The notes under the pieces: model-generated
Databases searched by the model: none
The model's input: the letters and a program-made list of their open reading frames with translations, nothing else
What the model was told of the DNA's origin: nothing
DNA from: a virus
IMG/VR virus record: IMGVR_UViG_3300024346_000022
Location: 32,748 to 96,747 of that record
Reading direction: 5' to 3' (one strand)
Length of the DNA stretch: 64,000 bases
Program-made: the position numbers and the translations under genes
In this document: positions 31,660 to 64,000 of the stretch, piece after piece
How the letters are laid out: each line of letters begins with the position of its first letter
Numbering within the stretch: the first letter of the stretch is position 1

Positions 31660-33671
<2,012 letters not shown>

Positions 33672-51480: not shown

Positions 51481-52262
51481 TAAAAATATTGCTGTATTTT
51501 AAAAAGATTATGATCTATTCCATGAGTAAATAACAATCTATAAAATCTCCCAAAATTATCAGCAAAATGATTACCAACATCTTGGATGGTTTTCTTTTCA
51601 TCATTATCTAAAAGGTAATCCCAAGATTTTGAACTTGGATGAAATCTTTCTAACAAATACTTATAAACATCTATTGGATGCCTTTGTATTAAATTTTTAC
51701 TTACAGAAAAGCAATGTGCATGGTCAAAGGCATAAATTTTTCCAGGAAGATTGCTTCTATCCGGAAAAATATGGTTGTACCAATCTTCAAATACTTCCCA
51801 TCTCTTTGCTCTGCCATCAAAATTAAACGGATTACCAGTTACATATGGACTATCTACATTAATATAAGTATCTCCCAATATTTCCTTTAGATGTAAATTG
51901 TCATTATTATACCAAATATATGATCGCAATCCAGATCCCACTTCACAATAATCATAATTTATACAATTATCAAGTAAATAATAAAAATTTATACCTTGCT
52001 CTTTCCAATTAATTTTTGTAAATACTGTATGCTCAGGAAGAATGGTATAATTATCTACAATATAACTTAAAAAAGCATAGTCAGATTTTCCATAATTTGG
52101 TATTAAAATTTGATTTTCAACTATTTTATTCTCACCTATTTTTAAATCATCAGATTTTTTATAAATGATTAAATTATAATTTTTTTGGTGGACTAGATTA
52201 TCCCAATCCAACTTATACAAATCAATATAATAAGAAGTTATTACATTTATATTATTTTTCAT
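51480..52262 (-). CDS. DUF3431-like protein
   Basis: 260 residues. NVITSYYIDLYKLDWDNLVHQKNYNLIIYKKSDD, NQILIPNYGKSDYAFLSYIVDNYTILPEHTVFTKI resemble the DUF3431 pattern (W..L....Y....IYNKG, LPNxGREx..YL.YI...Y..LPD). Proteins of this family appear in glycan clusters and look transferase-like. First gene of the 18-gene glycan run, after a 23-nt gap with hairpin GTACT/AGTAC (52270-52283). Confidence 0.7.
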   Translation of the reverse strand: MKNNINVITSYYIDLYKLDWDNLVHQKNYNLIIYKKSDDLKIGENKIVENQILIPNYGKSDYAFLSYIVDNYTILPEHTVFTKINWKEQGINFYYLLDNCINYDYCEVGSGLRSYIWYNNDNLHLKEILGDTYINVDSPYVTGNPFNFDGRAKRWEVFEDWYNHIFPDRSNLPGKIYAFDHAHCFSVSKNLIQRHPIDVYKYLLERFHPSSKSWDYLLDNDEKKTIQDVGNHFADNFGRFYRLLFTHGIDHNLFKIQQYF

Positions 52263-52285
52263 AAAGGGGGTACTGAGCAGTACTT

Positions 52286-52543
52286 TTAGAAATTTTCAAT
52301 GTCTTCATCATTGTCTATCACATAACAAGGTACTCTATCTGGGTCCAACCATTTAGCATAATTAAAGTCTTCCATAGCAGTCAAGCACTGCATCTGATTA
52401 TCAAACAGATAGATATCATTCCATCGTTTGGTATAATAATCTTTTTTCTGAAGACGATAATCGGGTTTGTTGTTAAGTTCAATAACACCCTTTTCTACAA
52501 ACCGATATTCTTCTCGTTCTAATAAAACTTTAGGTTGAATCAT
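52286..52543 (-). CDS. 85-residue unknown protein
   Basis: Overlaps the upstream gene by 4 nt. Product MIQPKVLLEREEYRFVEKGV..., then LFDNQMQCLTAMEDFNYAKWLDPDRVPCYVID and an acidic end. Charged, soluble, no motif. Confidence 0.65.
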   Translation of the reverse strand: MIQPKVLLEREEYRFVEKGVIELNNKPDYRLQKKDYYTKRWNDIYLFDNQMQCLTAMEDFNYAKWLDPDRVPCYVIDNDEDIENF

Positions 52544-52755
52544 TTTACTTCAACAGTTTCAAGGTCTTGATCGAGATAGTCCATTAGAATATCATAATTA
52601 TCGAGAGGATCATCAGAAAAAATTACTCCTTGATTCTCATAAAATCGGCGGACTTTTTTATAAAGTTTTGGATTTTTTACATCAAGATAAAAATCACCAT
52701 TAGTAGCACCACGAAGGGTACTAACGTCTTTCTTAAATTTTTGAATCAGAGACAT
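52540..52755 (-). CDS. 71-residue unknown protein, first gene after promoter
   Basis: Product begins MSLIQKFKKDVSTLRGATNG and continues FYLDVKNPKLYKKVRRFYENQGVIF to an acidic C-terminus. A consensus promoter lies about 25 nt upstream. The same transcript may run on into the glycan operon, since no terminator is evident before 36944. Confidence 0.7.
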   Translation of the reverse strand: MSLIQKFKKDVSTLRGATNGDFYLDVKNPKLYKKVRRFYENQGVIFSDDPLDNYDILMDYLDQDLETVEVK

Positions 52756-52778
52756 TGTTCTGTTTTGTTTACCTCACT

Positions 52779-52807
52779 ATTATAGTGTATTTGAATTTTT
52801 TTGTCAA
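52779..52807 (-). promoter_or_regulatory. Sigma70-type promoter ahead of the glycan operon
   Basis: TTGACA (52802-52807), 17-bp spacer, TATAAT (52779-52784), perfect consensus. A hairpin GCCAGT/ACTGGC (52812-52829) lies just upstream. Confidence 0.92.
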
Positions 52808-52831
52808 GTGTGCCAGTCATAAAACTGGCAA

Positions 52832-52903
52832 TCGGGGTGGGAGGTAACGCTCCCCCTTCGCTGCGTCCCAAACGCAGAGTTATAACTTTTCTACTACACC
52901 CCG
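52832..52903 (-). tRNA. tRNA-Pro(TGG) with non-canonical D- and T-loops
   Basis: 72 nt. Perfect acceptor CGGGGTG/CACCCCG with C1:G72 and A73 (bacterial tRNA-Pro hallmarks), perfect anticodon stem CTGCG/CGCAG, loop TTTGGGA with U33, anticodon TGG and G37. T-stem GGGGG/CCTCC closes a 7-nt loop AGCGTTA instead of TTCRANY; the D-arm is weak and lacks GG. The same T-loop occurs in the tRNA-Asn-like element at 57376. Confidence 0.7.
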
Positions 52904-52910
52904 TTTCTTT

Positions 52911-53057
52911 TCATAGGACCCAATGTCTTATCAACCATATAGAATGTATAATACCAAAAACAAACAAGGAACCAATAATTCCACTAATAATTCCAACACG
53001 AATTTCGTGATTTTTTATGGATTCATTTATCATTTTTTCTATTTCATCTCTATCCAT
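52911..53057 (-). CDS. 48-residue membrane peptide
   Basis: ATG at 53057. An N-terminal charged helix (MDRDEIEKMINESIKNHEIR) is followed by a membrane span (VGIISGIIGSLFVFGIIHSI) and a basic end. Overlaps the upstream stop by 8 nt. Confidence 0.6.
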   Translation of the reverse strand: MDRDEIEKMINESIKNHEIRVGIISGIIGSLFVFGIIHSIWLIRHWVL

Positions 53058-53250
53058 TCATAAAGTCCTCATATGTCTTTAAGATTTCTCTATCAATATC
53101 ATCTAAACTTTTATAAGAAGATTTCCAATTAGACTTAATTAATCTATCAATAAATTGATATACTTTAGTTGTTAGAGAAATTTTCATACGAACAAAAGAA
53201 CTTAAAAAAAATTGTCTTTTTTGCCAATTTTTATCCTTGATGTTCTCCAT
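53050..53250 (-). CDS. 66-residue basic protein, unknown
   Basis: MENIKDKNWQKRQFFLSSFV..., helical, basic. Starts inside the upstream frame and overlaps the next. No motif. Confidence 0.55.
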   Translation of the reverse strand: MENIKDKNWQKRQFFLSSFVRMKISLTTKVYQFIDRLIKSNWKSSYKSLDDIDREILKTYEDFMNG

Positions 53251-53386
53251 TTAGATATTTTGATAATGGATCTTTTTTAGTTTTTATAATTTCACAAGCT
53301 CTATTATAGAACATATTATCAGTATTACCAGATTCTTCAAATGTTTGTTTAATTTTTACCCAATTGTTATAGGCATGATCGTCCAT
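53231..53386 (-). CDS. 51-residue unknown protein
   Basis: ATG at 53386; MDDHAYNNWVKIKQTFEESG then NMFYNRACEIIKTKKDPLSKYLNG. Part of a run of small overlapping genes. Confidence 0.55.
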   Translation of the reverse strand: MDDHAYNNWVKIKQTFEESGNTDNMFYNRACEIIKTKKDPLSKYLNGEHQG

Positions 53387-53471
53387 TTAAATTTATAGTT
53401 AATAATAATAATTTATCTTAAAGATAATATTGACTTTAATTTTTATGTGTGGATTTTATGACACAAAATAT

Positions 53472-53732
53472 TTAACGAATCTCAAAATCTAAACGGCGAA
53501 CTTTACGCTGGCGTCTTTCTTCTTGCCACATTAAATCCTCATTACGAAGAACATTACTTGTGGTTTTTTGAGTTTGATTATTCAGCATTACTATCATTGA
53601 CAAATCAAGAGCAGTAATTTTAGCATTACGAATAATGGTTGCCATATTAGAGCAACCACAAGAAACTGATTTTGCGGCATTTCCTTCTATCTCCTTTTCA
53701 CAAGAGCGACATCTAATTCTTAAGTTTTCCAT
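53472..53732 (-). CDS. Small zinc-ribbon-like protein
   Basis: 86 residues. CRSCEKEIEGNAAKSVSCGCSNMATIIRN provides four closely spaced Cys in CxxC and CxC arrangement, suggesting a zinc site, followed by a helical charged tail (MWQEERRQRKVRRLDFEIR). Cyanophage-type protein of unknown role. Confidence 0.7.
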   Translation of the reverse strand: MENLRIRCRSCEKEIEGNAAKSVSCGCSNMATIIRNAKITALDLSMIVMLNNQTQKTTSNVLRNEDLMWQEERRQRKVRRLDFEIR

Positions 53733-53752
53733 TTGTCATTATAAGTTAATTT

Positions 53753-54187
53753 TTATTCGGTAAATGAACGTAGCATCCAAACAAACTTACCGTGTGCTTC
53801 GTTTAAATCATCAGCAAGATTAACAGTTCCTCTTGACTTTTGTGCGTCTGCTTCTTCGGCAACTTCACCTAACATATCTATAATCTTTTTATGACCCTCA
53901 AGTAGATCTTTAATCATTTCCATTTCAGAGATATTAGTTTTTGCTTCTCCTACACCAGAAACTTCTACAACTCTAGACAAAGAACTAATAGGTTTGATTC
54001 CTAAAAATCTCATATGTTCTGATATACGATCAACTTCTTCCTGAAGTTCTTCATACTGCTCTCCAAACAAATCGTGAATTTGTTTAAAGTCGGATCCCAC
54101 AACATGCCAATGATAGACCCAGGTTTTTTGAAATAACAAAAAAAGTGATGCTTGTGTATCACTTATAAGTTTATACAGTTTTTCCAT
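53753..54187 (-). CDS. Dps-like ferritin-fold protein
   Basis: 144 residues. The N-terminal helix pair WVYHWHVVGSDFKQIHDLFGEQYEELQEEVDRISEHMRFLG has the Dps ferroxidase pattern (H, H, D/E, D, E with W-H-V-x-G). The rest is four-helix-bundle sequence. Dps proteins store iron, consume H2O2 and bind DNA; a phage copy may limit oxidative damage during photosynthesis-driven infection. Possible late promoter CCTAAATA at 54210-54217. Confidence 0.88.
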   Translation of the reverse strand: MEKLYKLISDTQASLFLLFQKTWVYHWHVVGSDFKQIHDLFGEQYEELQEEVDRISEHMRFLGIKPISSLSRVVEVSGVGEAKTNISEMEMIKDLLEGHKKIIDMLGEVAEEADAQKSRGTVNLADDLNEAHGKFVWMLRSFTE

Positions 54188-54212
54188 TATACTAAATGTT
54201 TTAAGTATTTAT

Positions 54213-54377
54213 TTAGGAACCACTTATCATATATTCTACAGTATTTGCCACATCATTCATCGCTTCTCGTAGATTTTCACTTTGACCAGATTCTTGTTTG
54301 CGAACAGGACGAGAACTATTACAAAGAGTCCACCGCCACTGATTCATAGAATCACACCACCATAAGTTAATTTTCAT
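54213..54377 (-). CDS. 54-residue unknown protein
   Basis: ATG at 54377; MKINLWWCDSMNQWRWTLCN followed by a charged helix (SENLREAMNDVANTVEYMIS). Trp- and Cys-rich N-terminus. Starts 11 nt inside the preceding gene. Confidence 0.6.
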   Translation of the reverse strand: MKINLWWCDSMNQWRWTLCNSSRPVRKQESGQSENLREAMNDVANTVEYMISGS

Positions 54378-54525
54378 TCTTATAGTGCTCCAGCTCAATC
54401 CATTTAAGAAGTGTATTAAATGAAGTAATAGATGCCTGAGTACAATTATCGTCCTTAAGTCTTTGAATATAATACTCAAGTGCCTCAATAACCATTTGGC
54501 GGTCTGTTTGTGATATTAGTGACAT
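54367..54525 (-). CDS. 52-residue helical protein
   Basis: ATG at 54525; MSLISQTDRQMVIEALEYYI then KDDNCTQASITSFNTLLKWIELEHYKNEN. Overlaps the next gene. Looks like a small helical bundle; no family named. Confidence 0.6.
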   Translation of the reverse strand: MSLISQTDRQMVIEALEYYIQRLKDDNCTQASITSFNTLLKWIELEHYKNEN

Positions 54526-54554
54526 AAAAATCTTAACTCCAAGTTATAGTACAC

Positions 54555-54580
54555 AAAAAAGGGGGTTTTGCCACCCCCCC
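54555..54580 (-). terminator. Intrinsic terminator of pstS
   Basis: Stem GGGGG/CCCCC followed by six T on the minus strand, 7 nt after the pstS stop. Confidence 0.88.
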
Positions 54581-54586
54581 TATGTA

Positions 54587-55552
54587 TCATTCCTTAATTT
54601 GATTTACAGCAGCCTGTGCTTTTGCTTGAATTGCATCCTTAAGAGGAACATATCCAAGATCATCAGCAAATGCCTGTGCCTTATCACTCAGCATATAATT
54701 GATAACACCTTTAATAGCATCAGTCTTAGCACCATTACCAGTTCTATAGGCAAGCAGATAAGTCAGTGTTGCAATGGGATATGCACCTTTTGCAGAAGGA
54801 TTTGGATCCTGCCCTGCAAGGTTTTTATTCAGAACAATACCATTCAGTGCCTTGGCACCGGAAGCATAACTAGGGAGAACAAACTCACCAGACTTATTCT
54901 GAACTGCCGCTGCTTTCAGATTACCTTTGACAAAGGATTGATTGAGATATCCAATAGATCCGGGAGTTGTTGCAAGAATACCGGCAACGCCATCATTACC
55001 TTTACCACCAACACCAACTTTCCAATTTACAGACTTAGCAGATCCAAGTGTCCATTCTTTAGAAAATGCTTGCATTGATTCGGTGAATGCAGCAGTGGTT
55101 CCAGAACCATCAGAACGGTGTGCTACGGTGATTTTACCAGCAGAGCAACCAAGTTCTTTCCAGTTATCAATAGAACCCATAAAAACAGATACTGCTTGCT
55201 TCTGAGTGAGTTTCAGTTTGCAAGCAGGATTATTGTAGGCAATTGCAATTGTTCCACCAACAGTAGGAATTTGTACCACACCACGAGAAACTTTAGCACG
55301 ATCCTTATCACTAATTGGATCATCAGTAGCACCAAGGGCAACTGTTTGGTCAATGAATGCCTTACGACCACCACCAGAACCAATTGCTTGATAATTGACT
55401 TTGGGACCGTCAGATTTGGCAAGATTAGAGAACCAACGAGTATAGATGGTTTCAGGAAATGTAGCACCAGCAATATTGATTCTTGCAGGCAATGCAAATG
55501 CTGCGGTAGGAGAAAGAGCAAGACCAATAGCAATAAAATGTTTGAGTTTCAT
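54587..55552 (-). CDS. pstS: Phosphate-binding protein PstS
   Basis: 321 residues. Signal peptide MKLKHFIAIGLALSPTAAFA, then INIAGATFPETIYTRWF, GSGGGRKAFIDQ, RSDGSGTTAAF (phosphate-binding loop) and GSIGYL: typical PstS. It binds phosphate in the periplasm for the host PstABC transporter. Common in cyanophages and induced by host PhoR/PhoB. Own terminator downstream; the porin gene upstream ends in its own terminator. Confidence 0.96.
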   Translation of the reverse strand: MKLKHFIAIGLALSPTAAFALPARINIAGATFPETIYTRWFSNLAKSDGPKVNYQAIGSGGGRKAFIDQTVALGATDDPISDKDRAKVSRGVVQIPTVGGTIAIAYNNPACKLKLTQKQAVSVFMGSIDNWKELGCSAGKITVAHRSDGSGTTAAFTESMQAFSKEWTLGSAKSVNWKVGVGGKGNDGVAGILATTPGSIGYLNQSFVKGNLKAAAVQNKSGEFVLPSYASGAKALNGIVLNKNLAGQDPNPSAKGAYPIATLTYLLAYRTGNGAKTDAIKGVINYMLSDKAQAFADDLGYVPLKDAIQAKAQAAVNQIKE

Positions 55553-55598
55553 AAAAATGTTTTAAAGTTAAATTTTGGTTAAATGTACCTTAATATCA

Positions 55599-55620
55599 AA
55601 AATCCCCCTTGCGGGGGAAT
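55599..55620 (-). terminator. Intrinsic terminator of the porin gene
   Basis: CCCCC-TTGC-GGGGG stem followed by TTTTT on the minus strand, 27 nt after the porin stop. Confidence 0.85.
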
Positions 55621-55646
55621 AAATTGATATTGTACCTTATAGGTTA

Positions 55647-57131
55647 TCAGAACGTAAACTTAGTCTGAATTACGCCACCCCACTTGGAGGAGTTTTGATA
55701 ACGTTGGTTGTTATCAGCATAAAATATTGCCGGAGTAATACTAATGTTATCGGTGACTTGATACTTATAGAAGATCTCAATCATTAGAGCATCAGATACT
55801 TTTGAAACTTCTGCCGAGGGTGCTTGACCCACAGCAACGCCAGCACTATTACCCTTGGCAAATACATCAGACCACTGAAGACCAGCAAACCACGAATCCG
55901 AGTTCGTAGCACCATTTTTACCAACACGACCAGTTACGGAGTTATATCCATAACCAGCACTGATAGAAGGAACCCAACCAGATTCGACCGGTTGCCAATA
56001 AGCATTCAGAGCAACAGAGTTTGATTCCTGACCACTATCAAGAGCACCATTGGCACCCAGAAGACCGTTGTAGGTGCGAGGACGAGTGTTGACACCACCA
56101 TAGCGGTAACCAACAGCAACTCCCCACTGAGGAGCACGATAACCCACCTGAGCGAGCACGTTTAGACCACCATCAGAATCAAATACACCTGTTTCAGAAA
56201 ACTCACCATCTTGTGCGACATAGTTCACACCAGCCATGAAACCACCTTGACCTTTTTGAGTAGGTTGTTTCCATTGAGCACCGAAACCAGCACCAGTTGC
56301 CTTGTTATAGACACCAGAAGTACCAGCAAGTTGGAAAAAGTCAAGGATTTCTGACTTATAGGCAGAAGGAATCCACGACATCTCGGTATTACGAACCAAA
56401 GGACCAGCAGTTAGAGTTACACTCTTACCGACTGGGAATTGATAGTAAAGACGATCAATCACTGCTTGATCGGAATAAGATTCTGCCTTATCAACTTTGA
56501 ACAGAGAAGAGGAAGAACCAAAAGGATCAGAACTAAAGTTTCCTGAACGGAGACGAGTACGAAGCAAATCCTTACCCGTGAATGAAGTATCAAAGTTCAG
56601 ACGGAGATCATAGTTGAATGCGGTGTTGCCGACGTTTCCACCTTTATTCGTTTTAAGACCAGGAACTCCACCAAGAACAAAGTTTGCTTCACCCTTGAGT
56701 TTGGTTGTAGTAGAGAATTGTGTTGCCTGAAGTTGACCAACTTTATTCTCAAGACCATCCACACGAGAAGTCAATACAGTCAATTCTGCATCAAATTCTG
56801 CTAGGAGTTTTTTGAGTTCATCAGTAACTTCTGTTACACGATCTAGACAAGCATTAAGAAGAGCAGCAGCCTCAAAGCGAGTCATTGACTGACCGCCCTT
56901 ATAGGTTCCGTTAGGATATCCTGCCACACAACCATAACGCTCTACAAGATTGCTGAGTGCTTGATATGCCCAGTCAGTTGTTTGGACATCAGAGAATTGA
57001 GTAATGCTAGTAACTTGTTCCGAAGAGGCATATTGATTTACACCCTCAAGATTCAGTTCAGCAGCAGTTGCGGTAGGAGCGATAAGTCCCAGAGCAACCG
57101 GAGCAAGCATTAATTGTTGAAAAAATTTCAT
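55647..57131 (-). CDS. Som-type porin with SLH domain
   Basis: 494 residues from ATG 57131. Signal peptide MKFFQQLMLAPVALGLIAPT (cleavage near TATA-AEL). Residues 45-100: SLH motif FSDVQTTDWAYQALSNLVERYGCVAGYPNGTYKGGQSMTRFEAAALLNACLD. Then coiled coil (LKKLLAEFDAELTVLTSRVDGLENKVGQLQ) and a beta-barrel (OprB-like) ending in FTF. This is the standard cyanobacterial outer-membrane porin architecture, so the gene is host-derived. It likely raises outer-membrane permeability, plausibly to phosphate given its neighbour pstS. Confidence 0.93.
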   Translation of the reverse strand: MKFFQQLMLAPVALGLIAPTATAAELNLEGVNQYASSEQVTSITQFSDVQTTDWAYQALSNLVERYGCVAGYPNGTYKGGQSMTRFEAAALLNACLDRVTEVTDELKKLLAEFDAELTVLTSRVDGLENKVGQLQATQFSTTTKLKGEANFVLGGVPGLKTNKGGNVGNTAFNYDLRLNFDTSFTGKDLLRTRLRSGNFSSDPFGSSSSLFKVDKAESYSDQAVIDRLYYQFPVGKSVTLTAGPLVRNTEMSWIPSAYKSEILDFFQLAGTSGVYNKATGAGFGAQWKQPTQKGQGGFMAGVNYVAQDGEFSETGVFDSDGGLNVLAQVGYRAPQWGVAVGYRYGGVNTRPRTYNGLLGANGALDSGQESNSVALNAYWQPVESGWVPSISAGYGYNSVTGRVGKNGATNSDSWFAGLQWSDVFAKGNSAGVAVGQAPSAEVSKVSDALMIEIFYKYQVTDNISITPAIFYADNNQRYQNSSKWGGVIQTKFTF

Positions 57132-57190
57132 ATAGTTTGTTAAGAAATACAACTACGATGTTTATTTAGCTCCCCTGATATTTGAGGGGA

Positions 57191-57261
57191 AGCGGATACA
57201 CGGATTTGAACCGAGGATAAAAGTTTGGAAAACTCTTGTGTTACCACTACACCATATCCGC
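57191..57261 (-). tRNA. tRNA-Gly(TCC)
   Basis: 71 nt. Acceptor GCGGATA/TATCCGC, anticodon loop TTTCCAA (TCC), canonical T-arm (GGTTCAAATCC). Its promoter (57272-57300) starts transcription within a few nt of the mature 5' end. Confidence 0.92.
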
Positions 57262-57271
57262 ATTTGAGAGA

Positions 57272-57300
57272 ATTATAAGACATAATGAGTATTATGTCAA
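57272..57300 (-). promoter_or_regulatory. Sigma70-type promoter of tRNA-Gly
   Basis: TTGACA (57295-57300), 17-bp spacer, TATAAT (57272-57277); overlaps the 3' end of tRNA-Thr. Confidence 0.88.
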
Positions 57301-57373
57301 GCCCCCAGCGAGGATTTGCACCCGCGACTATCGCTTACAAGGCGATTGTTTTAACTACTACAACTATGGGGGC
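57300..57373 (-). tRNA. tRNA-Thr(TGT)
   Basis: Acceptor GCCCCCA/TGGGGGC, anticodon stem ATCGC/GCGAT, loop CTTGTAA (TGT), T-arm GCGGG-TGCAAAT-CTCGC (loop slightly unusual, TGCAAAT). Confidence 0.85.
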
Positions 57374-57375
57374 AA

Positions 57376-57448
57376 CTCCCCTCCTAGGTAACGCTCCTAG
57401 CTATCTCGAATTAACAGTTCGGCCCATTCGCTTGCTTGGTCGAGGGGA
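57376..57448 (-). tRNA. tRNA-Asn(GTT)-like with non-canonical D- and T-loops
   Basis: 73 nt with exact canonical spacing: perfect 7-bp acceptor TCCCCTC/GAGGGGA, G73, anticodon loop CTGTTAA at positions 32-38, 4-bp anticodon stem CGAA/TTCG, T-stem CTAGG/CCTAG. T-loop is AGCGTTA (same as tRNA-Pro), D-arm 3 bp and no GG in the loop; position 8 is G instead of T. Either a degraded tRNA or a working atypical one. Confidence 0.55.
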
Positions 57449-57454
57449 ATGATG

Positions 57455-57535
57455 GTAGGAGGGATTTCTATGTGCCGATAGAATCACCTTTCACATCATC
57501 TAGCAGAAACCAGAGAGCGGTGTTGCACTTCCTAC
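57455..57535 (-). ncRNA. 81-nt structured element, unknown
   Basis: Ends pair (GTAGGA/TCCTAC); inside are hairpins TTCTAT/ATAGAA and CACC/GGTG. Tried as a class II tRNA without success (no valid T-arm). It lies first in a transcript that also contains tRNA-Asn-like and tRNA-Thr. Confidence 0.4.
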
Positions 57536-57539
57536 ATTT

Positions 57540-57559
57540 TGATAGAGGCGCCTCTATCA
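57540..57559. repeat. 20-bp perfect palindrome
   Basis: TGATAGAGGC joined to its own complement, between the promoter at 57566 and the structured element; would form a 5'-end hairpin or bind a dimeric protein. Confidence 0.75.
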
Positions 57560-57565
57560 GTTTAT

Positions 57566-57594
57566 ATATTACACCATTTCTGGGATGGTGTCAA
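57566..57594 (-). promoter_or_regulatory. Sigma70-type promoter of the tRNA-Asn/tRNA-Thr unit
   Basis: TTGACA (57589-57594), 17-bp spacer that itself folds (CACCAT/ATGGTG), TAATAT (57566-57571). Confidence 0.75.
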
Positions 57595-58061
57595 GTCCAA
57601 AGATTATGATCATATTCCCAATGACAATTTGGGCACAAAGGCATTATATTTTGTTTTGAGTTTATTTCACTAATCAATATATCATCACTAAAGGAAGAAA
57701 TGGGTTTTATATGTGCAACTTCTATATGTTTATTATATCCACATTTAAGACACTCAGTAAATCCAAGTTTTTTAGCAATTGCTCTCGCTCTTGTTCTTAC
57801 CAAGGAGAATGCCGATGACTTGTGGTGATTTTCATATATCGCTTCTTTAAGAGTCATATCTTTTACTTCTTTATTCTTTATCCATATCAAATAGTGTTCC
57901 ATACAACGAGCACGATTTGCTGTTATTGGTTTTCCACAATCCAAACATTTATGTTCAGGTTTTCTTTTAGGAACCTTTTTATTGTTATAAGAAGCAGCAC
58001 AACTTCTACTGCAAAATTTGGGATTAGAAGTATGCTTTTCGCAAAATAAACATTTAATCAT
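57591..58061 (-). CDS. HNH homing endonuclease (second copy) with zinc fingers
   Basis: 156 residues. N-terminal zinc modules CLFCEKHTSNPKFCSRSC and CLDCGKPITANRARCMEHY; the HNH core CLKCGYNKHIEVAHIKPISSFSDD...NIMPLCPNCHWEYDH has CxxC, the HI-x-P strand, the central Asn and the final CxxCH. It sits in the tRNA region, a usual home for homing genes. Leader hairpin and late promoter at 58065-58104. Confidence 0.88.
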   Translation of the reverse strand: MIKCLFCEKHTSNPKFCSRSCAASYNNKKVPKRKPEHKCLDCGKPITANRARCMEHYLIWIKNKEVKDMTLKEAIYENHHKSSAFSLVRTRARAIAKKLGFTECLKCGYNKHIEVAHIKPISSFSDDILISEINSKQNIMPLCPNCHWEYDHNLWT

Positions 58062-58064
58062 AAT

Positions 58065-58104
58065 GGAACCTTTAGTTACTATTATTTATACGCTAAAAGG
58101 TTCC
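58065..58104 (-). promoter_or_regulatory. Hairpin leader with embedded late promoter, HNH 2
   Basis: Inverted repeat GGAACCTTTAG (58065-58075) and its near-complement (58093-58104, one extra base) encloses a perfect TATAAATA (58083-58090, minus). The proximal arm contains AAAGG, the likely ribosome site, 3-14 nt before the ATG. Confidence 0.75.
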
Positions 58105-58109
58105 AAAAA

Positions 58110-58228
58110 CGTCTCGTGCAAGATTCGAACTTGCGACCCACTGCTTATCACCTTATAAGGAATTGAACCTTATCATAACCACCCGGAAGGCGGAAGGCAG
58201 TTGTTCTAATCCGCTGAACTAACGAGAC
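58110..58228 (-). tRNA. tRNA, probably Arg(TCT), with 45-nt insertion in the anticodon loop
   Basis: 119 nt. Acceptor GTCTCGT/ACGAGAC, normal D-arm (TTCAGCGGATTAGAAC), anticodon stem ACTGC/GCAGT and canonical T-arm GCAAG-TTCGAAT-CTTGC are all intact. The loop is 52 nt (58145-58196) instead of 7. Removing 45 nt gives CTTC|TAA, anticodon TCT. The insert folds into two hairpins: CCGCC-TTCCG-GGTGG and ATAAGG-TTCAATT-CCTTAT, the latter looking like a T-arm. Confidence 0.7.
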
Positions 58229-58236
58229 ATAAGACA

Positions 58237-58265
58237 ATCATAACAGACGATGCTAGGATTGTCAA
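58237..58265 (-). promoter_or_regulatory. Sigma70-type promoter of the interrupted tRNA
   Basis: TTGACA (58260-58265), 17-bp spacer, TATGAT (58237-58242); the start site would be almost at the tRNA 5' end. Confidence 0.85.
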
Positions 58266-58340
58266 ATGGGTTCGGTGGGGTACGATCCCACAACCTTTGC
58301 CTTAAAAGGGCACTATTCTTCCAGTTGAATTACGAACCCA
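58266..58340 (-). tRNA. tRNA-Lys(TTT)
   Basis: Acceptor TGGGTTC/GAACCCA, anticodon arm GTGCC-CTTTTAA-GGCA(A), anticodon TTT, T-stem GTGGG/CCCAC with loop ATCGTAC. Confidence 0.88.
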
Positions 58341-58389
58341 TAAGAAGAGAAGACCCAGACCTTCTCTATGGTCTCTCAACCACCCTCAT

Positions 58390-58418
58390 AGAATAGCACC
58401 CAAGACCCGTGCTGTCAA
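58390..58418 (-). promoter_or_regulatory. Sigma70-type promoter of tRNA-Lys
   Basis: TTGACA (58413-58418), 17-bp spacer, TATTCT (58390-58395); overlaps the stop of the next gene. Confidence 0.75.
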
Positions 58419-58603
58419 TCCTTTGCTTCCTTACGGGCGTTCTTTTCTTCGGTAATCTCGCCTCTACGGGTCTTTACCAGTTTTGACATTTCTTGTAGTG
58501 CCTTGCGAGCACGAGTTCCGGCAGCATTATTACCGGCAGCGAACTTTTCGTCTTCTACTTTCCATTCTTCAACGGCATTCAGTAGTTCTTGTGATGTAGA
58601 CAT
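58415..58603 (-). CDS. Histone H1/Hc1-like small protein
   Basis: 62 residues from ATG 58603 (MSTSQELLNAVEEWKVEDEK); the frame runs to 58660. NNAAGTRARKALQEMSKLVKTRRGEITEEKNARKEAKD matches the pattern of Hc1-type DNA-binding proteins (AGxRARKxLQEL..L....R..I...KN). Possibly compacts or organises phage DNA. Confidence 0.7.
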   Translation of the reverse strand: MSTSQELLNAVEEWKVEDEKFAAGNNAAGTRARKALQEMSKLVKTRRGEITEEKNARKEAKD

Positions 58604-58646
58604 AATGATTTCTATAAAAAATAAGATATGTTTATATATAACATTT

Positions 58647-59078
58647 TTATTCGCATCCATCTATCCATGGAGCACATAAACGCATTTCTCCACCGAGTGA
58701 CTTACATTCTTCGGTATAACACACAGATTCATCAACTGGTTTCTCAATATACTTTGGTTGATATTTGCGATCATAATCGGCAATAATTCTATCGTACTCT
58801 GGTCTTACATTTTCGATTGCTCTATCAACTTCTAATTCAATTCTTACTTCTAATTCTTTTTTACTTTCAGTTCTTGGCAACTCATGATTTAACCCAAATT
58901 GTTGAAGAATTAAAGTATAAATTTTCCAAAGGTCTTTTTCACCAATCTTCAACCATCCAGATAAAGAAACTATAATCAGCACGATAATAGAACTCAGAAC
59001 AACTGACTTTATTTTTTTAGAAGTTGCATCAGGAAGAGTGATAAGTTTTCCATTCTTAATCTCAAAAAGTCTAAGCAT
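58647..59078 (-). CDS. Membrane protein with Cys-rich C-terminus
   Basis: 143 residues from ATG 59078 (MLRLFEIKNGKLITLPDATSKK). One membrane span (VVLSSIIVLIIVSLSGWLKI), a long charged helix, and a C-terminus with four Cys (VCYTEECKSLGGEMRLCAPWIDGCE), possibly disulphide-bonded outside the membrane. The layout is spanin-like but unproven. Overlaps the next upstream gene by 8 nt. Confidence 0.68.
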   Translation of the reverse strand: MLRLFEIKNGKLITLPDATSKKIKSVVLSSIIVLIIVSLSGWLKIGEKDLWKIYTLILQQFGLNHELPRTESKKELEVRIELEVDRAIENVRPEYDRIIADYDRKYQPKYIEKPVDESVCYTEECKSLGGEMRLCAPWIDGCE

Positions 59079-59352
59079 TATTCTTCTCGTATTCTTTAAT
59101 TGACTTATCCAAAACTCTTTCAATTCTATAAGTAATCAATTCAGAATCTTGAATTATATAATCATTTAGAATATCAATACCCATAGAAGACTGAACTTCA
59201 TCCAGTAAATTGAAAACTTTTTTCTTTTGAATTCCTGGAATGAGTGAAATTGCATCTAATGAGAAATGAACAATTGCACCAATCTTAATCCACTCCTTTA
59301 GAGATTTGTTTTCTTTTCCATACTTAAACTCAAAGATATTAAATTTACTCAT
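59071..59352 (-). CDS. 93-residue unknown protein
   Basis: Starts MSKFNIFEFKYGKENKSLKE, helical with a hydrophobic centre (WIKIGAIVHFSLDAISLIPGI). Coupled by overlaps on both sides. Always seems to travel with its neighbours in cyanophages as far as I recall; function unknown. Confidence 0.68.
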   Translation of the reverse strand: MSKFNIFEFKYGKENKSLKEWIKIGAIVHFSLDAISLIPGIQKKKVFNLLDEVQSSMGIDILNDYIIQDSELITYRIERVLDKSIKEYEKNNA

Positions 59353-59632
59353 TCAAGAAGTCCTCCAAAGCATCATCTAGCATTTGTTTAGCATCTATTT
59401 GTTTTCTGGGTTCTCTCATCTTTTTCGTATCAAAGGTAAGTATAGGTGTAATATTTCCACTTTCTTCCATTTTTACCTTTGCTCCAAATGGCGTTCCTTT
59501 GGGTTGAACTTCAAATGAATTATGAGAATTTAATTTAATCTCACCAATATCAGTTTGTACCTTTAAGTATCCCACTCTGGCGGCAATATCTATAATATCT
59601 TTTGGTTCTTGTGGAAGATTTTCTATTGACAT
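59345..59632 (-). CDS. 95-residue unknown protein
   Basis: Starts MSIENLPQEPKDIIDIAARV; beta-rich centre (KVQTDIGEIKLNSHNSFEV) and acidic C-terminus (KQMLDDALEDFLNE). The ATG follows a terminator T-run directly, leaving no clear ribosome site, so a downstream start is possible. Confidence 0.62.
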   Translation of the reverse strand: MSIENLPQEPKDIIDIAARVGYLKVQTDIGEIKLNSHNSFEVQPKGTPFGAKVKMEESGNITPILTFDTKKMREPRKQIDAKQMLDDALEDFLNE

Positions 59633-59633
59633 G

Positions 59634-59661
59634 AAAAAAGGAGGGTTATGAGTTCCCTCCT
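59634..59661 (-). terminator. Intrinsic terminator after the tail-lysozyme-like gene
   Basis: AGGAGGG/CCCTCCT stem followed by TTTTT on the minus strand; it runs into the ATG of 59632. Confidence 0.82.
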
Positions 59662-59684
59662 ATATTTATTAAATTTTATGAATT

Positions 59685-60326
59685 TTAGACTTCGGTAAGA
59701 ACCATTCGCTTTGAATAATCATAAGCATAGTCAGTTCTTGCTCCGTGATCGCCCCAGCGTATCCACTTTCTAGCAAGTCGCATATAATCATTAATCGACT
59801 TACCAGGTGTTTTCATATGAGGTTCAATCATCTTCCAATCACCTTCATACAACATATAATCAAGTTGAGTATCAAGTGAAGAAGGATTGGCACCAATACG
59901 AGCAGCGTGTTTTCCTAGTCCATAAAAGCGAGAAGCATTAGTCCATTGAATTAATCCATACCCTCCACCGCAATTAGGATAAGACACTCTCACACCACCC
60001 TCACATATGTTAGGTGTGAAAGTAGACTCTTGGCGAATATTACCCATAATCGTCGCTAGGGCATTTTTGTCAGTAACTCCACGATCCTGGAGGAAGTCCA
60101 GAGTTCGTGATTCATTATGATTACATCCTTTACAAATTAATCGTGTAACTTTAGGTTTTTCGGGAACAACCTCTTTGGTCTCTGTCTCTCGAATAGGACC
60201 TTCAGGAACAATCGCAAATGGTGGTTGTACTGAAGATGTTGCCATACTCGGTGCTGGCAGTATTGCCGCTGATGTTGTAACCGCACCCAAAATCGCTACG
60301 GTCACATTTGTTAGGTTTTTAAGCAT
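59685..60326 (-). CDS. Secreted phage tail-lysozyme-like protein
   Basis: 213 residues. N-terminal signal-like segment (MLKNLTNVTVAILGAVTTSA...), a Pro-rich linker, a CxxC (CKGCNHNESR), then ALATIMGNIRQESTFTPNICEGG...GGGYGLIQWTNASRFYGLG: the Glu in QES and the GLIQWT motif define the tail-lysozyme family (Phage_lysozyme2-like). Cleaves peptidoglycan at entry or exit. Confidence 0.85.
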   Translation of the reverse strand: MLKNLTNVTVAILGAVTTSAAILPAPSMATSSVQPPFAIVPEGPIRETETKEVVPEKPKVTRLICKGCNHNESRTLDFLQDRGVTDKNALATIMGNIRQESTFTPNICEGGVRVSYPNCGGGYGLIQWTNASRFYGLGKHAARIGANPSSLDTQLDYMLYEGDWKMIEPHMKTPGKSINDYMRLARKWIRWGDHGARTDYAYDYSKRMVLTEV

Positions 60327-60339
60327 TTAAGTTAATAGA

Positions 60340-60425
60340 ATTCGGCATCCGTTTAAAAGGGGGGTATACCAACCCTCTCGGGAGGCACCTTCCACGGCTC
60401 TAGTTTTCAAGTCAAAGACTCATTA
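60340..60425 (-). promoter_or_regulatory. Structured leader RNA upstream of the tail-lysozyme-like gene
   Basis: GC-rich region containing GGAAGGTGCC, a CCTC-CCGA-GAGG hairpin and GGTATACC, unlike the AT-rich surroundings. It looks like a conserved cis-RNA (riboswitch-like), but I cannot name it. Confidence 0.4.
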
Positions 60426-60453
60426 TGAAAAAACCCACCTTTGGAAGTGGGTT
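60426..60453 (-). terminator. Intrinsic terminator just after a promoter (attenuator-like)
   Basis: AACCCAC/GTGGGTT stem with six T on the minus strand, only a few nt after the start site of the promoter at 60460. Confidence 0.8.
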
Positions 60454-60459
60454 CGTGAC

Positions 60460-60488
60460 ATTATATGCGATTATTTAGGGTTTGTCAA
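60460..60488 (-). promoter_or_regulatory. Sigma70-type promoter ahead of the structured leader
   Basis: TTGACA (60483-60488), 17-bp spacer, TATAAT (60460-60465), perfect consensus; overlaps the end of the 60475 gene. Confidence 0.88.
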
Positions 60489-60717
60489 GGGGTCGGTCGT
60501 CCAAGGCACTAATATCGATATACATAATGTCAATTTCCTTTACTTCTTCTGGAATATGAATCCATTCCTCAAACTCTTGTTGCAGAGCTTTAGCATTTTT
60601 ATGCCTATCTGATTCATGAAGTAAATCAATTTTATTGACAGCCCAATCCTTAATGTCGCATAAGGTATTATTATCCAATAATTCTTTCAAAATCTGATTT
60701 GATAAGGTTAGTGTCAT
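60475..60717 (-). CDS. 80-residue unknown acidic protein
   Basis: From ATG 60717 (MTLTLSNQILKELLDNNTLC); the frame runs to 60744. Helical, acidic end (EEVKEIDIMYIDISALDDRPLDKP). The promoter -10 covers this ATG, so the true start may be elsewhere. Confidence 0.6.
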   Translation of the reverse strand: MTLTLSNQILKELLDNNTLCDIKDWAVNKIDLLHESDRHKNAKALQQEFEEWIHIPEEVKEIDIMYIDISALDDRPLDKP

Positions 60718-60744
60718 TATAATGGGTCTGTGCTTCCGCGTCAA
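60716..60744 (-). promoter_or_regulatory. Sigma70-type promoter (TTGACG-N17-TATAAT)
   Basis: -35 at 60739-60744, -10 at 60716-60721. It overlaps the only good ATG of the downstream gene. Confidence 0.6.
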
Positions 60745-60783
60745 GGGATGTGCCTACATACTATGATTAGGAATACTTATCAT

Positions 60784-61209
60784 ATGACTTGGCAGTACAA
60801 CAAAGAGGACTTTACCGATGTACCCAAAGGTATGGAAGGATTTGTTTATGTCATTACAAATCTAACTAATGATAAAAAATATATTGGAAAAAAGAACTTC
60901 TGGACTCGTCAAAAAGATCGTAAGACTGGTCGTAGAAAAACTAAAGAAAGTGATTGGCAGAAATACTTTGGTTCTTGTGATGAACTGATTGAAGATGTAA
61001 AGTTATTAGGTCAAGATAAGTTCTCCAGAGAAATCTTGTATTTGTGCCCTCATAAGAAATCTATGAGTTATTATGAGACGATGGAACAATTTAAGCGTGA
61101 TGTAATCTTAAGAGAAGATTATTACAACACAAATGTTGAAGGTAAGTTCTTTAGTAGCGAAGTAGAGAGACTTTATGAAATTGTCCTTAAGAGTTCTAAC
61201 GCGTCTTAA
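60784..61209 (+). CDS. GIY-YIG-like protein (third, degenerate type)
   Basis: 141 residues from ATG 60784 (MTWQYNKEDFTDVPKGMEGF). FVYVITNLTNDKKYIGKKNFWTRQKDRKTGRRKTKESDWQKYFGSCDEL has a GIY-YIG layout (VYVIT ... YIGKK) with downstream DKFSREILYLCPHKKSMSYYETMEQFKRDVI containing the conserved Glu. No NUMOD repeats, unlike the other two. Common in cyanophages; perhaps a domesticated nuclease. Only plus-strand gene here; a small inverted repeat TATGAT/ATCATA precedes the ATG. Confidence 0.78.
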   Translation: MTWQYNKEDFTDVPKGMEGFVYVITNLTNDKKYIGKKNFWTRQKDRKTGRRKTKESDWQKYFGSCDELIEDVKLLGQDKFSREILYLCPHKKSMSYYETMEQFKRDVILREDYYNTNVEGKFFSSEVERLYEIVLKSSNAS

Positions 61210-61247
61210 AGTACTTAAAGCTCCCTGTTCTCAAAAGCAACAAACCT

Positions 61248-61276
61248 ATTATAGCGACAAAAAAGCACCTTGTCAA
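61248..61276 (-). promoter_or_regulatory. Sigma70-type promoter firing antisense to the GIY-YIG-like gene
   Basis: TTGACA (61271-61276), 17-bp spacer, TATAAT (61248-61253), perfect consensus; the -35 is in the loop of the terminator at 61258-61286. Confidence 0.82.
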
Positions 61277-61286
61277 GAGGTGCTTT
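61258..61286. terminator. Bidirectional terminator between GIY-YIG-like and Pro/Ala-rich genes
   Basis: 9-bp stem AAAGCACCT/AGGTGCTTT, 7-nt loop, T-runs on both sides. Confidence 0.88.
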
Positions 61287-61308
61287 GAGTTATGTTAAGG
61301 TTTTATAA

Positions 61309-62649
61309 TTAACCTTTTGTTTTCTTACCTCTTCTTTCTCTGTGCTCTTCTCTACGGGCCCGCTGCTGACCGCCACCCAATGCTAAAGCACCACTTGGAT
61401 TATCATATCTATTAAGCCTAGCACCAGACCTTTTGTGTTCTGGGAGTTTTTCATCTACCTTTGCCTCAATAATACTACCAATCATCTCAGCATCCAACTC
61501 AAGCATTACATAATTTGCTTCTTCTAAGGTGTCTGCGTGACCCTGTGAGAGGAGATACTCAAGCACGAGGTCATAGGCATCATATTCTTCCTTCTTCAGT
61601 TTACTGGGTGCTACAGTATTACTTAATGTATTGCTTGGAGCAACTTTAGGAGCCTCTGTTGGGGTTGGTGGTGCTGTTGAAGTCGCAGCACTTAATTTAG
61701 CAGCAAGTGGGGCAGTAGGAACTCCAAAACCACTAGGACGAGATGTTACTGCTGGTTTTGATGCTGATTTTCCTGCCTCTACGCCAGCTTTGACTGCCGC
61801 TTCTTCGGCACCCTTTGTATCTCCTGCTGCCTTTGCCGCCGCTCTTGCTGCTTTTGCCGCTCTCAATTCTGCACTAGTTGCCGCCCTTCTTTCAAACTTA
61901 GTTCCACCTGCGGTAGTTCCAATAGCAGGTTTTGTGGGTCCTGCTGGTGTTGGTTTGGGTGTTGGTGTTGGTGAAACTTTAGCGGGAGCAGCGGCGGCGG
62001 GTCTGGCGGCAGGAGCAGCAGCAGGGGTTCTGGTAGGAGGAACGGGTTTATCTTTATCGACAGGAGGAACGAGTTTATCTTTATTGACAGGAGGAACAGG
62101 TTTAGCGGAAGATTTAAAAAGTGGAGTAGCGGGTTTTGCTTCTTTTGATGGCAAATAAACAGTTCTATTCCCACTTTGAGCTGGGAAAAGTGTTCTTCCT
62201 CCAACATTAATTTGTTGAGTTTCTCCGGGCTTAAGTGGTTTATTTACAACAACACCTTGTCTCCCACCAGAGACAGCTCCAAATCCTCTTCCTTGTGCTG
62301 TTCCAGTTGTAGCCCCCCTAACATTAATACCCCTACCTTGCCCAAGAGCAGTTTGTACTTGTCCTTGTGCGGTAGAACGGGTTGCTTTATCTTTGTTTGA
62401 TTGTGCTACTGCTTGATTATAACGAGCTACATCTGGGTTTCCATAATTCCTCGCCGGAGCCTCCTCCAAATAAGACTCAAACATCTCTTCCCAAGTATAA
62501 TCACTCAGGTCATAACCTTCTTCGATGAGTGTATTGACCCACTCTTCCACTTCTTCCCATACCTGTTCTTCGGTGAGTTCTTGAGGAGCATATACTGCCT
62601 GATATGCCTCCATCAATCCTCTAACATCATTACCTGTAAGTGTAGACAT
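61309..62649 (-). CDS. Pro/Ala-rich cyanophage virion-type protein
   Basis: 446 residues. Folded N-terminus (about 1-70: EEQVWEEVEEWVNTLIEEGYDLSDYTWEEMFESYLEEA), a long low-complexity middle rich in Pro, Ala, Lys, Thr with VPPVNKDK/VPPVDKDK repeats, and a conserved C-terminal piece (EEYDAYDLVLEYLLSQGHADTLEEANYVMLELDAEMI) seen in several cyanophage structural proteins. A late promoter (62676) suggests a virion protein. Function unknown. Confidence 0.75.
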   Translation of the reverse strand: MSTLTGNDVRGLMEAYQAVYAPQELTEEQVWEEVEEWVNTLIEEGYDLSDYTWEEMFESYLEEAPARNYGNPDVARYNQAVAQSNKDKATRSTAQGQVQTALGQGRGINVRGATTGTAQGRGFGAVSGGRQGVVVNKPLKPGETQQINVGGRTLFPAQSGNRTVYLPSKEAKPATPLFKSSAKPVPPVNKDKLVPPVDKDKPVPPTRTPAAAPAARPAAAAPAKVSPTPTPKPTPAGPTKPAIGTTAGGTKFERRAATSAELRAAKAARAAAKAAGDTKGAEEAAVKAGVEAGKSASKPAVTSRPSGFGVPTAPLAAKLSAATSTAPPTPTEAPKVAPSNTLSNTVAPSKLKKEEYDAYDLVLEYLLSQGHADTLEEANYVMLELDAEMIGSIIEAKVDEKLPEHKRSGARLNRYDNPSGALALGGGQQRARREEHRERRGKKTKG

Positions 62650-62675
62650 CTTTTCTTTTAAGTTCTTTATAGTTT

Positions 62676-62683
62676 TATTTATA
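62676..62683 (-). promoter_or_regulatory. T4-type late promoter (TATAAATA) of 61309-62649
   Basis: Perfect octamer directly following the terminator T-run at 62684-62706; 27 nt before the ATG. Confidence 0.82.
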
Positions 62684-62706
62684 AAAAAAGGGTCTCAAGG
62701 ACCCTT
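62684..62706 (-). terminator. Intrinsic terminator after nrdB and the 49-residue gene
   Basis: AAGGGTC/GACCCTT stem with a 5-nt loop and T-run on the minus strand; the stem contains the stop codon of 62695-62844. Confidence 0.85.
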
Positions 62707-62844
62707 ATCTAACCAAACATAAGAATAGTCGTGATCTCCAAAAAGAACATCATCATATTCGGCAGCATCTTTATAACATTTTATAATTTCTTCTTCACAC
62801 CACTCATCGTAATTTCCATCACTATTGAGTATTTTTGGTGTCAC
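62695..62844 (-). CDS. 49-residue acidic protein after nrdB (GTG start)
   Basis: GTG start overlaps the nrdB stop (GTGA). Product begins (M)TPKILNSDGNYDEWCEEEI and ends DHDYSYVWLDKGP; very acidic. The terminator follows immediately. No family recognised. Confidence 0.6.
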   Translation of the reverse strand: MTPKILNSDGNYDEWCEEEIIKCYKDAAEYDDVLFGDHDYSYVWLDKGP

Positions 62845-63983
62845 AACTTGAATCCGGAGAAAGTATCAGATTTTACATCAGACTTAATACCACCAACCAA
62901 ATATGAAGTTATCTCCGATTCTTGTGGTGCTATTTGTACTTCTCTTGAATTCAACCAGTGTGAGGTCCAAGGAAGAGGATTATTCTTCGCCGGAACATCA
63001 TAAACAGGACGAAGACCGATTGCCTTCATTCTACGATTAGCGGTCCATTCCACATACTGCTGAAGAAGTTTATCATTTAAACCAATCATCGAACCATCCT
63101 TAAAGAGATATTCAGCCCAGTGTTTTTCCTGATTGACTGCGTTCTCAAAGGTCTTATAAACCCACTGCTCTTCTTCCTGTGAGATTTTCTTCATATCAGG
63201 GTCATCACCCTCCTTCCACTTGTTTAGAATGTTCTGGGTGATGACTAAATGCTGACTTTCATCTCGGGCAATCAAACCGATGATTTTTGCACTTCCTTCC
63301 ATAAGTTTGAGTTCGCCAAATGCAAAACTGCAAGCGAAACTAACATAAAAGCGAATACCTTCAAGAATATTAACATTTGCAACTGCTCTGTAGAGTTTGC
63401 GTTTGAGTTCATATCTTTCTACCTGTGCGTAAGGAACTTGTTCTTGAGCGTGTTTCCAAAGTTCAGAAGTTCCATAATGTTGAGCACTATTGATAAAGTC
63501 ATTATAAGCCTCAGTTACACTTGCCGCTCTTTCCATAATACGATCATCACAAAGAATTGTATCAAAAACATCAGAAGGATTTGAATATACATTCTTAATA
63601 ATATAGGTATATGAACGAGAATGAATCATCTCCATAAACTCCCATACTTTCATACATGCTTCTAGTTCTGGTAGAGAGCAGTACGGAGCAAATGCCATAC
63701 CGGGACCTCTTCCCTGAACCGAATCAAGCATAATCTGATATTTTAGATTACTCGTGAAAATATGTTTTTGTTCGGGTCGTAGAGTCTGATAGTCTCCACG
63801 ATCTTTTTGTAATGAGATTTCTTCGGGTCTCCAAAAGTATCCAAGTTGTTGTTGAGTCAATTTATCAAAGATTGGATACTTATAAGAATCATATCTTTGT
63901 ATTCCCAGTGGTTGACCAAAAAACATAGGTTGTTTTTTGGTATCCACTTCTTGGGTATTAAAAACGGTCATAGATTCGACCAT
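62841..63983 (-). CDS. nrdB: Ribonucleotide reductase class Ia beta subunit NrdB
   Basis: 380 residues. ATG at 63983 has AAGGAG 7 nt upstream, which decides the start. YFWRPEEISLQKDRGDY, WEFMEMIHSRSYTYII (metal-ligand Glu and His), NVNILEGIRFYVSFACSFAF and IARDESQHLVITQNIL (Glu and His ligands) are the NrdB di-iron motifs. It holds the tyrosyl radical cofactor for making deoxynucleotides; the large subunit NrdA is presumably just upstream of the window. Confidence 0.95.
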   Translation of the reverse strand: MVESMTVFNTQEVDTKKQPMFFGQPLGIQRYDSYKYPIFDKLTQQQLGYFWRPEEISLQKDRGDYQTLRPEQKHIFTSNLKYQIMLDSVQGRGPGMAFAPYCSLPELEACMKVWEFMEMIHSRSYTYIIKNVYSNPSDVFDTILCDDRIMERAASVTEAYNDFINSAQHYGTSELWKHAQEQVPYAQVERYELKRKLYRAVANVNILEGIRFYVSFACSFAFGELKLMEGSAKIIGLIARDESQHLVITQNILNKWKEGDDPDMKKISQEEEQWVYKTFENAVNQEKHWAEYLFKDGSMIGLNDKLLQQYVEWTANRRMKAIGLRPVYDVPAKNNPLPWTSHWLNSREVQIAPQESEITSYLVGGIKSDVKSDTFSGFKL

Positions 63984-64000
63984 TAGATTCTCCTTTGTAC

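Follow-up and report, generated by a model that had tools for sequence, protein, structure and literature searches.

The 64,000-nt stretch of DNA analyzed in this study (hereafter the window; positions 32,748 to 96,747 of the virus record IMGVR_UViG_3300024346_000022) contains a tRNA gene with additional nucleotides in its anticodon loop, which raises the question of whether the gene has been broken or whether it carries an intron. The source virus (record of 96.7 kb) looks like a T4-like cyanophage, judging by its SegE-type GIY-YIG endonuclease, phosphate-binding-type PBP protein and OprB-type porin; among isolates, the closest found were Synechococcus phages.

The interrupted tRNA gene and its insert

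The features of the locus are as follows.

58237..58265, (-) strand: sigma-70-type promoter TTGACA-17-TATGAT, read from the sequence by eye, just upstream of the tRNA
58110-58228, (-) strand: outer tRNA-Arg(UCU), whole gene, 119 nt (Rfam RF00005)
58193..58228, (-) strand: 5′ half of the outer tRNA-Arg(UCU), GTCTCGTTAGTTCAGCGGATTAGAACAACTGCCTTC (Rfam RF00005)
58148..58192, (-) strand: insert of 45 nt, a nested mini-tRNA and proposed intron, delimited by comparison with the uninterrupted syntenic tRNA-Arg of L090, L148 and L118
58186..58192, (-) strand: inner acceptor stem, 5′ strand CGCCTTC, of which 6/7 positions pair with 58149-58155; proposed RNase P cut just 5′ of it
58173..58185, (-) strand: 13-nt linker CGGGTGGTTATGA with a D-loop-like GG
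58156..58172, (-) strand: inner T-arm TAAGG-TTCAATT-CCTTA, a 5-bp stem with a 7-nt TTCRANY loop, kept in L417 and L430
58149..58155, (-) strand: inner acceptor stem, 3′ strand TAAGGTG, with the same letters in the window, L417 and L430
58148..58148, (-) strand: inner discriminator base, A, with the proposed RNase Z cut immediately 3′ of it; CCA is not encoded, as in the outer tRNA
58110..58147, (-) strand: 3′ half of the outer tRNA-Arg(UCU), TAAGCAGTGGGTCGCAAGTTCGAATCTTGCACGAGACG, without encoded CCA (Rfam RF00005)
57591..58061, (-) strand: HNH endonuclease gene (Pfam HNH_2 2e-9, PHROG 1271), directly downstream of tRNA-Arg

The gene matched the Rfam tRNA model with 53.2 bits (E 2.9e-9), the extra bases falling in the anticodon loop, and ARAGORN, which missed the outer tRNA in default mode, called a 45-nt intron in intron mode. 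Both results bear out the initial annotation, which had reported a 45-nt insertion in this loop, and its view that the tRNA is intact elsewhere also holds, as all outer helices are fully Watson-Crick paired (acceptor 7/7, D 4/4, anticodon 5/5 and T 5/5, read from the sequence). The consensus promoter that it had noted upstream was recognized as well: TTGACA (58265-58260) and TATGAT (58242-58237) are separated by 17 nt, and 8 nt lie between the end of the latter and the tRNA 5′ end. A similar promoter precedes the tRNA-Arg of L125. A second contig (IMGVR_UViG_3300027278_000381, L002) shares 4609 bp identical to the window, including the interrupted tRNA, which is therefore not confined to one assembly.

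Alignment to the relatives places the insertion point at C35|U36 of the outer tRNA, and removal of the insert leaves a 7-nt loop, CUUCUAA (CTTC+TAA), the same as in uninterrupted relatives. The layout of the insert is 7 + 13 + 17 + 7 + 1 nt and its ends correspond exactly to tRNA positions 1 and 73. The T-arm-like hairpin described previously was found (UAAGG-UUCAAUU-CCUUA); as is general for tRNAs, it adjoins the 5′ side of the acceptor 3′ strand, after which there is a single unpaired base. To judge by these letters, the insert is a tRNA acceptor/T-arm minihelix, that is, a tRNA minus the D-stem and anticodon arm. The earlier suggestion that it might be the 3′ half of another tRNA thus stands as regards a tRNA origin and falls short as regards extent, since both acceptor strands and the T-arm are present. 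The outer tRNA is otherwise intact and contains a tRNA-like fold within its anticodon loop; this inner element (45 nt, without D-stem and anticodon arm) is not a full-length tRNA.

The inner acceptor stem of the window includes one G-U pair and one C-U mismatch. The two hairpins that had been proposed for the insert are the minimum free energy fold of the bare 45-mer (−9.6 kcal/mol), with the minihelix, in which the ends pair as an acceptor stem around the T-arm, as the alternative (−7.2 kcal/mol); in the full 119-nt context, the centroid fold is the minihelix. The two-hairpin fold is favoured in the bare inserts of the window (by 2.4 kcal/mol) and L430, and the minihelix in that of L417.

No Rfam intron or ribozyme matched the window insert, and no group I core (RF00028) was matched within window positions 50000-64000 at E<=1, whereas the introns of relatives match this model at 61-67 bits. 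Inspection of the sequence and folds of the window insert did not reveal a bulge-helix-bulge (two 3-nt bulges with a 4-bp helix between them) across the junctions.

Relatives of the gene and the neighbouring HNH endonuclease

Relatives with the same gene order have a tRNA-Arg(UCU) at this place, which is mostly uninterrupted; the uninterrupted gene that the initial annotation had advised looking for is present in the syntenic L090, L148 and L118. A homologous insert at the same position of the same tRNA-Arg was found in L417 and L430, two diverged cyanophage-like contigs, whose outer halves differ from those of the window at 16 and 22 of 74 positions, respectively. These outer tRNAs are still well paired, with compensated changes in the acceptor, D and T stems, and the three inserts differ very little in the T-arm and acceptor strands. 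The maintenance of the insert in diverged tRNAs with compensated stems argues against a recent breakage, which the initial annotation had considered, and the relatives accordingly do not present the simple decay that it had named as contrary evidence. Horizontal spread of the insert into tRNAs that had already diverged may be an alternative to its long conservation.

When tRNA-Arg genes containing an insert of 30-60 nt were sought under strict criteria, the near-identical contig was the only match, and similarity searches for a nested copy in cultured phages gave ordinary tRNAs only, or nothing. The insert was also considered as a copy of another tRNA and rejected, because across 162 loci it matched L001-L003 only, all of which carry this very gene. 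An origin as a remnant of the group I intron of relatives was likewise discarded: the insert shows no evident sequence similarity to that intron, lacks an Rfam match and is inserted one base away. Other interrupted or unusual RNA genes were observed: L031 (1699-1816) contains another interrupted tRNA, 118 nt in length, with an insert unlike a nested tRNA in appearance; in L417 (about 6370-6700) the start of a tRNA-Leu is followed by an apparent intron of ~200 nt and then by a tRNA 3′ half; and the cyanophage contig L004 (3491-3740) contains a tmRNA-like match, at which the permuted and cyanobacterial tmRNA models overlap.

Close homologues of the HNH protein (>=80% identity) are encoded in about 30 contigs, mostly behind a tRNA-Arg(UCU) with a group I intron (RF00028) of ~200 nt, which sits at U34|C35, one base from the insertion site in the window. 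In L004-L018, L021-L028 and L030-L032, the cyanophage tRNA-Arg(UCU) contains an intron of ~200 nt (group I where scanned), and an HNH gene follows immediately downstream. Thus, phages of a single group carry either a group I intron or a mini-tRNA at almost the same site of the anticodon, and HNH may have driven both. In L417 and L430, the mini-tRNA is present and no HNH relative was detected within the stretch examined. Between tRNA-Arg and the HNH gene of the window there is a T4-like late promoter (TATAAATA, 58083-58090), enclosed by an imperfect inverted repeat (GGAACCTTT...AAAGGTTCC, about 58070-58107); HNH homologues in other loci are preceded by similar repeats.

Nested tRNAs in other phages

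A T-loop spacing of ~31 nt marks a tRNA lying inside an anticodon loop, and this spacing was therefore used as a pattern for scanning viral contigs. The matches were passed to a detector of nested tRNAs, which requires good outer stems plus an inner acceptor stem and T-arm. At least 87 distinct matches were obtained in the fetched loci and none in the same 4.19 Mb reversed or block-shuffled, which excludes chance at the level of the class. The same pattern occurred in 57 viral stretches, compared with 10 in 257 Gb of cellular genomes; of these ten, only two (L512 and L514) look nested.

The scan patterns put no constraint on the 5′ side (the 3′ side was partly selected in some scans), so the length of the residual loop provides a real test. 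In at least 52 nested genes (52/87 among the matches listed), removal of the inner tRNA, from nucleotide 1 to the discriminator or CCA, leaves a loop of exactly 7 nt. Among the matches listed, the loop is split 3+4, 4+3 or 5+2 across the insert, and the restored anticodons are those for Lys, Asn, Ile, Arg, Gln, Thr, Glu, Leu and Gly, with no stop anticodon. CCA is encoded by both inner and outer tRNAs in 33 cases, by neither in 10 and discordantly in 6 (agreement in 43/49, P about 4e-6, among the matches listed). A preference for U at position −1, as a sign of RNase P, was not significant among the matches listed (40/49 versus 36 expected).

In these further tRNA-in-tRNA genes, at least 50 or so, the inner part ranges from a full-length tRNA down to minis of ~44 nt. 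Apparently complete inner tRNAs are (i) Asn in Lys (L307, L374), (ii) Phe in Arg (L481) and (iii) Gly in Asn (L330). L387 and L376 represent intermediate forms, with a D-arm and no clear anticodon arm, and the minis comprise inner elements of 40-46 nt. Among the matches listed, a linker GG is present in 14/14 distinct minis and starts at linker position 2-4 in 13 of them, which is consistent with a contact between D-loop and T-loop. The existence of intermediate and full-length inner forms in other phages leads us to file the window insert as a variant of phage nested-tRNA introns rather than as a plain member. The recurrence of the arrangement in dozens of phages suggests a little-recognized kind of tRNA intron.

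Most detector matches that do not leave a 7-nt loop belong to a class of their own, distinguished by an additional module on the 5′ side. Its members (L232, L258, L308, L398, L399, L411, L413, L419, L420, L427, L439, L445, L449, L457, L460, L461 and L463) have a conserved module of ~30 nt (like AUACAGAGUGGUUCACUGAAACGAACC), which follows the 5′ outer half and precedes the inner tRNA. This module looks like a covarying H-type pseudoknot and is possibly a ribozyme or another type of intron; no Rfam match to it was found in the seven loci scanned. At the end of L420, a locus holding a nested tRNA, there is a partial match to GOLLD RNA (2215-2488). L496 and L504, considered as nested introns with an endonuclease gene, were rejected for want of a convincing 5′ outer half.

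Proposed splicing, rival readings and known systems

The insert behaves like the unusually short intron that the initial annotation had envisaged as one possibility, and we infer from its structure both excision and ligation, as well as their order. It is probably a tRNA-derived intron: host RNase P and RNase Z would excise it, and a phage T4-type RNA ligase 1 would seal the remaining nick. In the proposed pathway (i) the 119-nt precursor would fold as a tRNA with a second, shrunken tRNA (acceptor stem and T-arm) on its anticodon stem, (ii) host RNase P would cut after C35, where the inner minihelix begins, (iii) host RNase Z would cut after the inner discriminator base, before U36, the two cuts yielding a free 45-nt RNA and an outer tRNA nicked in the anticodon loop (3′-OH, 5′-phosphate), and (iv) the phage ligase would seal this nick, giving tRNA-Arg with the loop CUUCUAA, in which ...CUGCCUUC is joined to UAAGCAGU.

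The single steps have precedents. Both nucleases are present in cyanobacteria (PMC10989914), and minihelix substrates are cleaved by bacterial RNase P in vitro (PMC11221534). RNase Z cuts CCA-less pre-tRNA directly after the discriminator, leaving a 3′-OH, and is inhibited by cytidines at the following positions (PMC7479834); the base after the discriminator of the window insert is U. Ends of the 3′-OH and 5′-phosphate type can be joined by ATP-grasp RNA ligases (PMC7824862), and breaks in the anticodon loop of tRNA-Lys are resealed by T4 Rnl1 (PMC3014915). Several points count against the proposal: the bare window insert prefers the two-hairpin fold, and its acceptor stem is imperfect (the G-U pair and the C-U mismatch). 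In addition, leader and trailer are base-paired to one another 3-4 nt from the cut sites, a possible hindrance to the nucleases, and phages that encode CCA need a cut precisely behind CCA, a less standard reaction in many bacteria.

The contig of the window encodes, outside the window itself, a T4-type Rnl1 of 388 aa (PF09511, 114 bits, above the cut-off; TIGR02308, 132 bits, below the equivalog cut-off of 242) with the KxDG motif in the form KLDG (in EKLDGSM). Among contigs of >=80 kb, and uncorrected for kinship or completeness, Rnl1/Rnl2-family matches at E <= 0.001 were found in 26/30 nested contigs versus 12/31 tRNA-bearing controls (P 0.0002), so that four nested contigs gave no match in this search; with Pfam-curated cut-offs only, the enrichment was weaker, a ligase being detected in 19/30 versus 12/31 (P 0.07), under the same restrictions. 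RtcB was rejected as the sealing ligase: none of 31 records contained a match, and this enzyme needs ends other than 3′-OH and 5′-phosphate. We lean towards a form of tRNA splicing that is widespread among phages, in which tRNAs would serve as introns, cut by RNase P and a tRNA 3′-end nuclease and sealed by Rnl1/Rnl2-type ligases, with a reductive series leading from functional inner tRNAs to minihelices of ~44 nt acting as mere cut signals.

Several other readings were weighed against this splicing route. The direct repeat GCCTTCC-GCCTTCC at the 5′ junction of the insert is of the kind left by illegitimate recombination, and phage tRNA genes turn over fast, both of which would suit a decaying pseudogene, killed when a fragment of another tRNA recombined into its anticodon loop. 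We consider this quite unlikely, in view of the 21/21 paired positions of the outer helices, the intact promoter, the persistence of the insert in two diverged phages with compensated outer stems, and the exact 7-nt loops restored in at least 50 or so other nested genes. It is very unlikely that the insert is kept as mobile DNA, destroying the target of the neighbouring HNH homing endonuclease, with RNA removal secondary or absent: L417 and L430 contain the insert without an HNH relative in the stretch examined, other HNH copies adjoin uninterrupted tRNAs, and the remaining nested tRNAs were found without reference to HNH. What speaks for this reading is the HNH gene behind the tRNA, together with its close homologues behind tRNA-Arg(UCU) genes whose group I intron lies one base from the insertion site in the window; this reading is, moreover, compatible with splicing.

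Excision is independent of the ligase, and some large nested contigs contain no ligase match, so that cleavage might also occur without ligation, freeing the inner RNA and leaving the outer halves nicked or as tRNA fragments, e.g. a decoy against anticodon nucleases. This appears unlikely, because in at least 52 genes the two halves together make up a canonical loop of 7 nt that contains a sense anticodon, a property that matters only upon ligation. Removal by other machinery, i.e. a bulge-helix-bulge endonuclease or a self-cleaving RNA, is highly improbable for the window insert, which has neither the ~30-nt module nor an Rfam intron or ribozyme match and whose acceptor stem is flush with the junction, leaving no bulge-helix-bulge; to our knowledge, bacteria lack the corresponding endonuclease. 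The related nested class does carry the conserved 5′ module, which is potentially catalytic.

If the proposed splicing by RNase P, RNase Z and a phage ligase is correct, a route without a dedicated splicing endonuclease is added to the known ways of tRNA splicing, phage RNA ligases gain a regular job besides the repair of damage by host nucleases, the "enigmatic" tRNA introns of megaphages are explained, and it becomes clear why such genes escape default tRNA finders. In a limited search of the open-access literature, no previous description of the minihelix form was encountered.

The closest known counterparts are the tRNA introns of Lak megaphages, called enigmatic in the accessible text of Devoto et al. 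(2019, PMC6784885), according to which the intron of tRNA-Thr(UGU) may itself encode a tRNA; a similar remark on tRNA-encoding introns appears in the accessible text of a 2026 survey of 262 jumbo phage genomes (PMC13037316). As in the window gene, tRNA-like sequence lies inside a phage tRNA, but the Lak element is described there as a possible tRNA of very large phages, whereas the window insert is a 45-nt minihelix of a cyanophage. The accounts of Lak and jumbo phages, in these same parts, propose no boundary rule, enzymes or ligase; a boundary rule across at least 50 or so genes is given here. In related cyanophages, group I introns (RF00028) also occur within the tRNA-Arg(UCU) anticodon loop, but they are catalytic RNAs of ~200 nt at U34|C35, in contrast to the 45-nt insert at C35|U36, which has no group I core. 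The protein-spliced tRNA introns of archaea and eukaryotes are likewise short, located in the anticodon loop and processed by an endonuclease and a ligase; they usually lie one nucleotide 3′ of the anticodon and depend on a dedicated endonuclease (in archaea recognizing a bulge-helix-bulge), whereas the window intron would carry its own tRNA-like cut signals. Finally, in the Pnkp/Rnl1 repair of tRNA-Lys in T4, Rnl1 also seals an anticodon-loop nick, but there the host nuclease PrrC introduces the nick, whose ends need healing, while the ends proposed to be generated here by RNase P and RNase Z would be ready to join.
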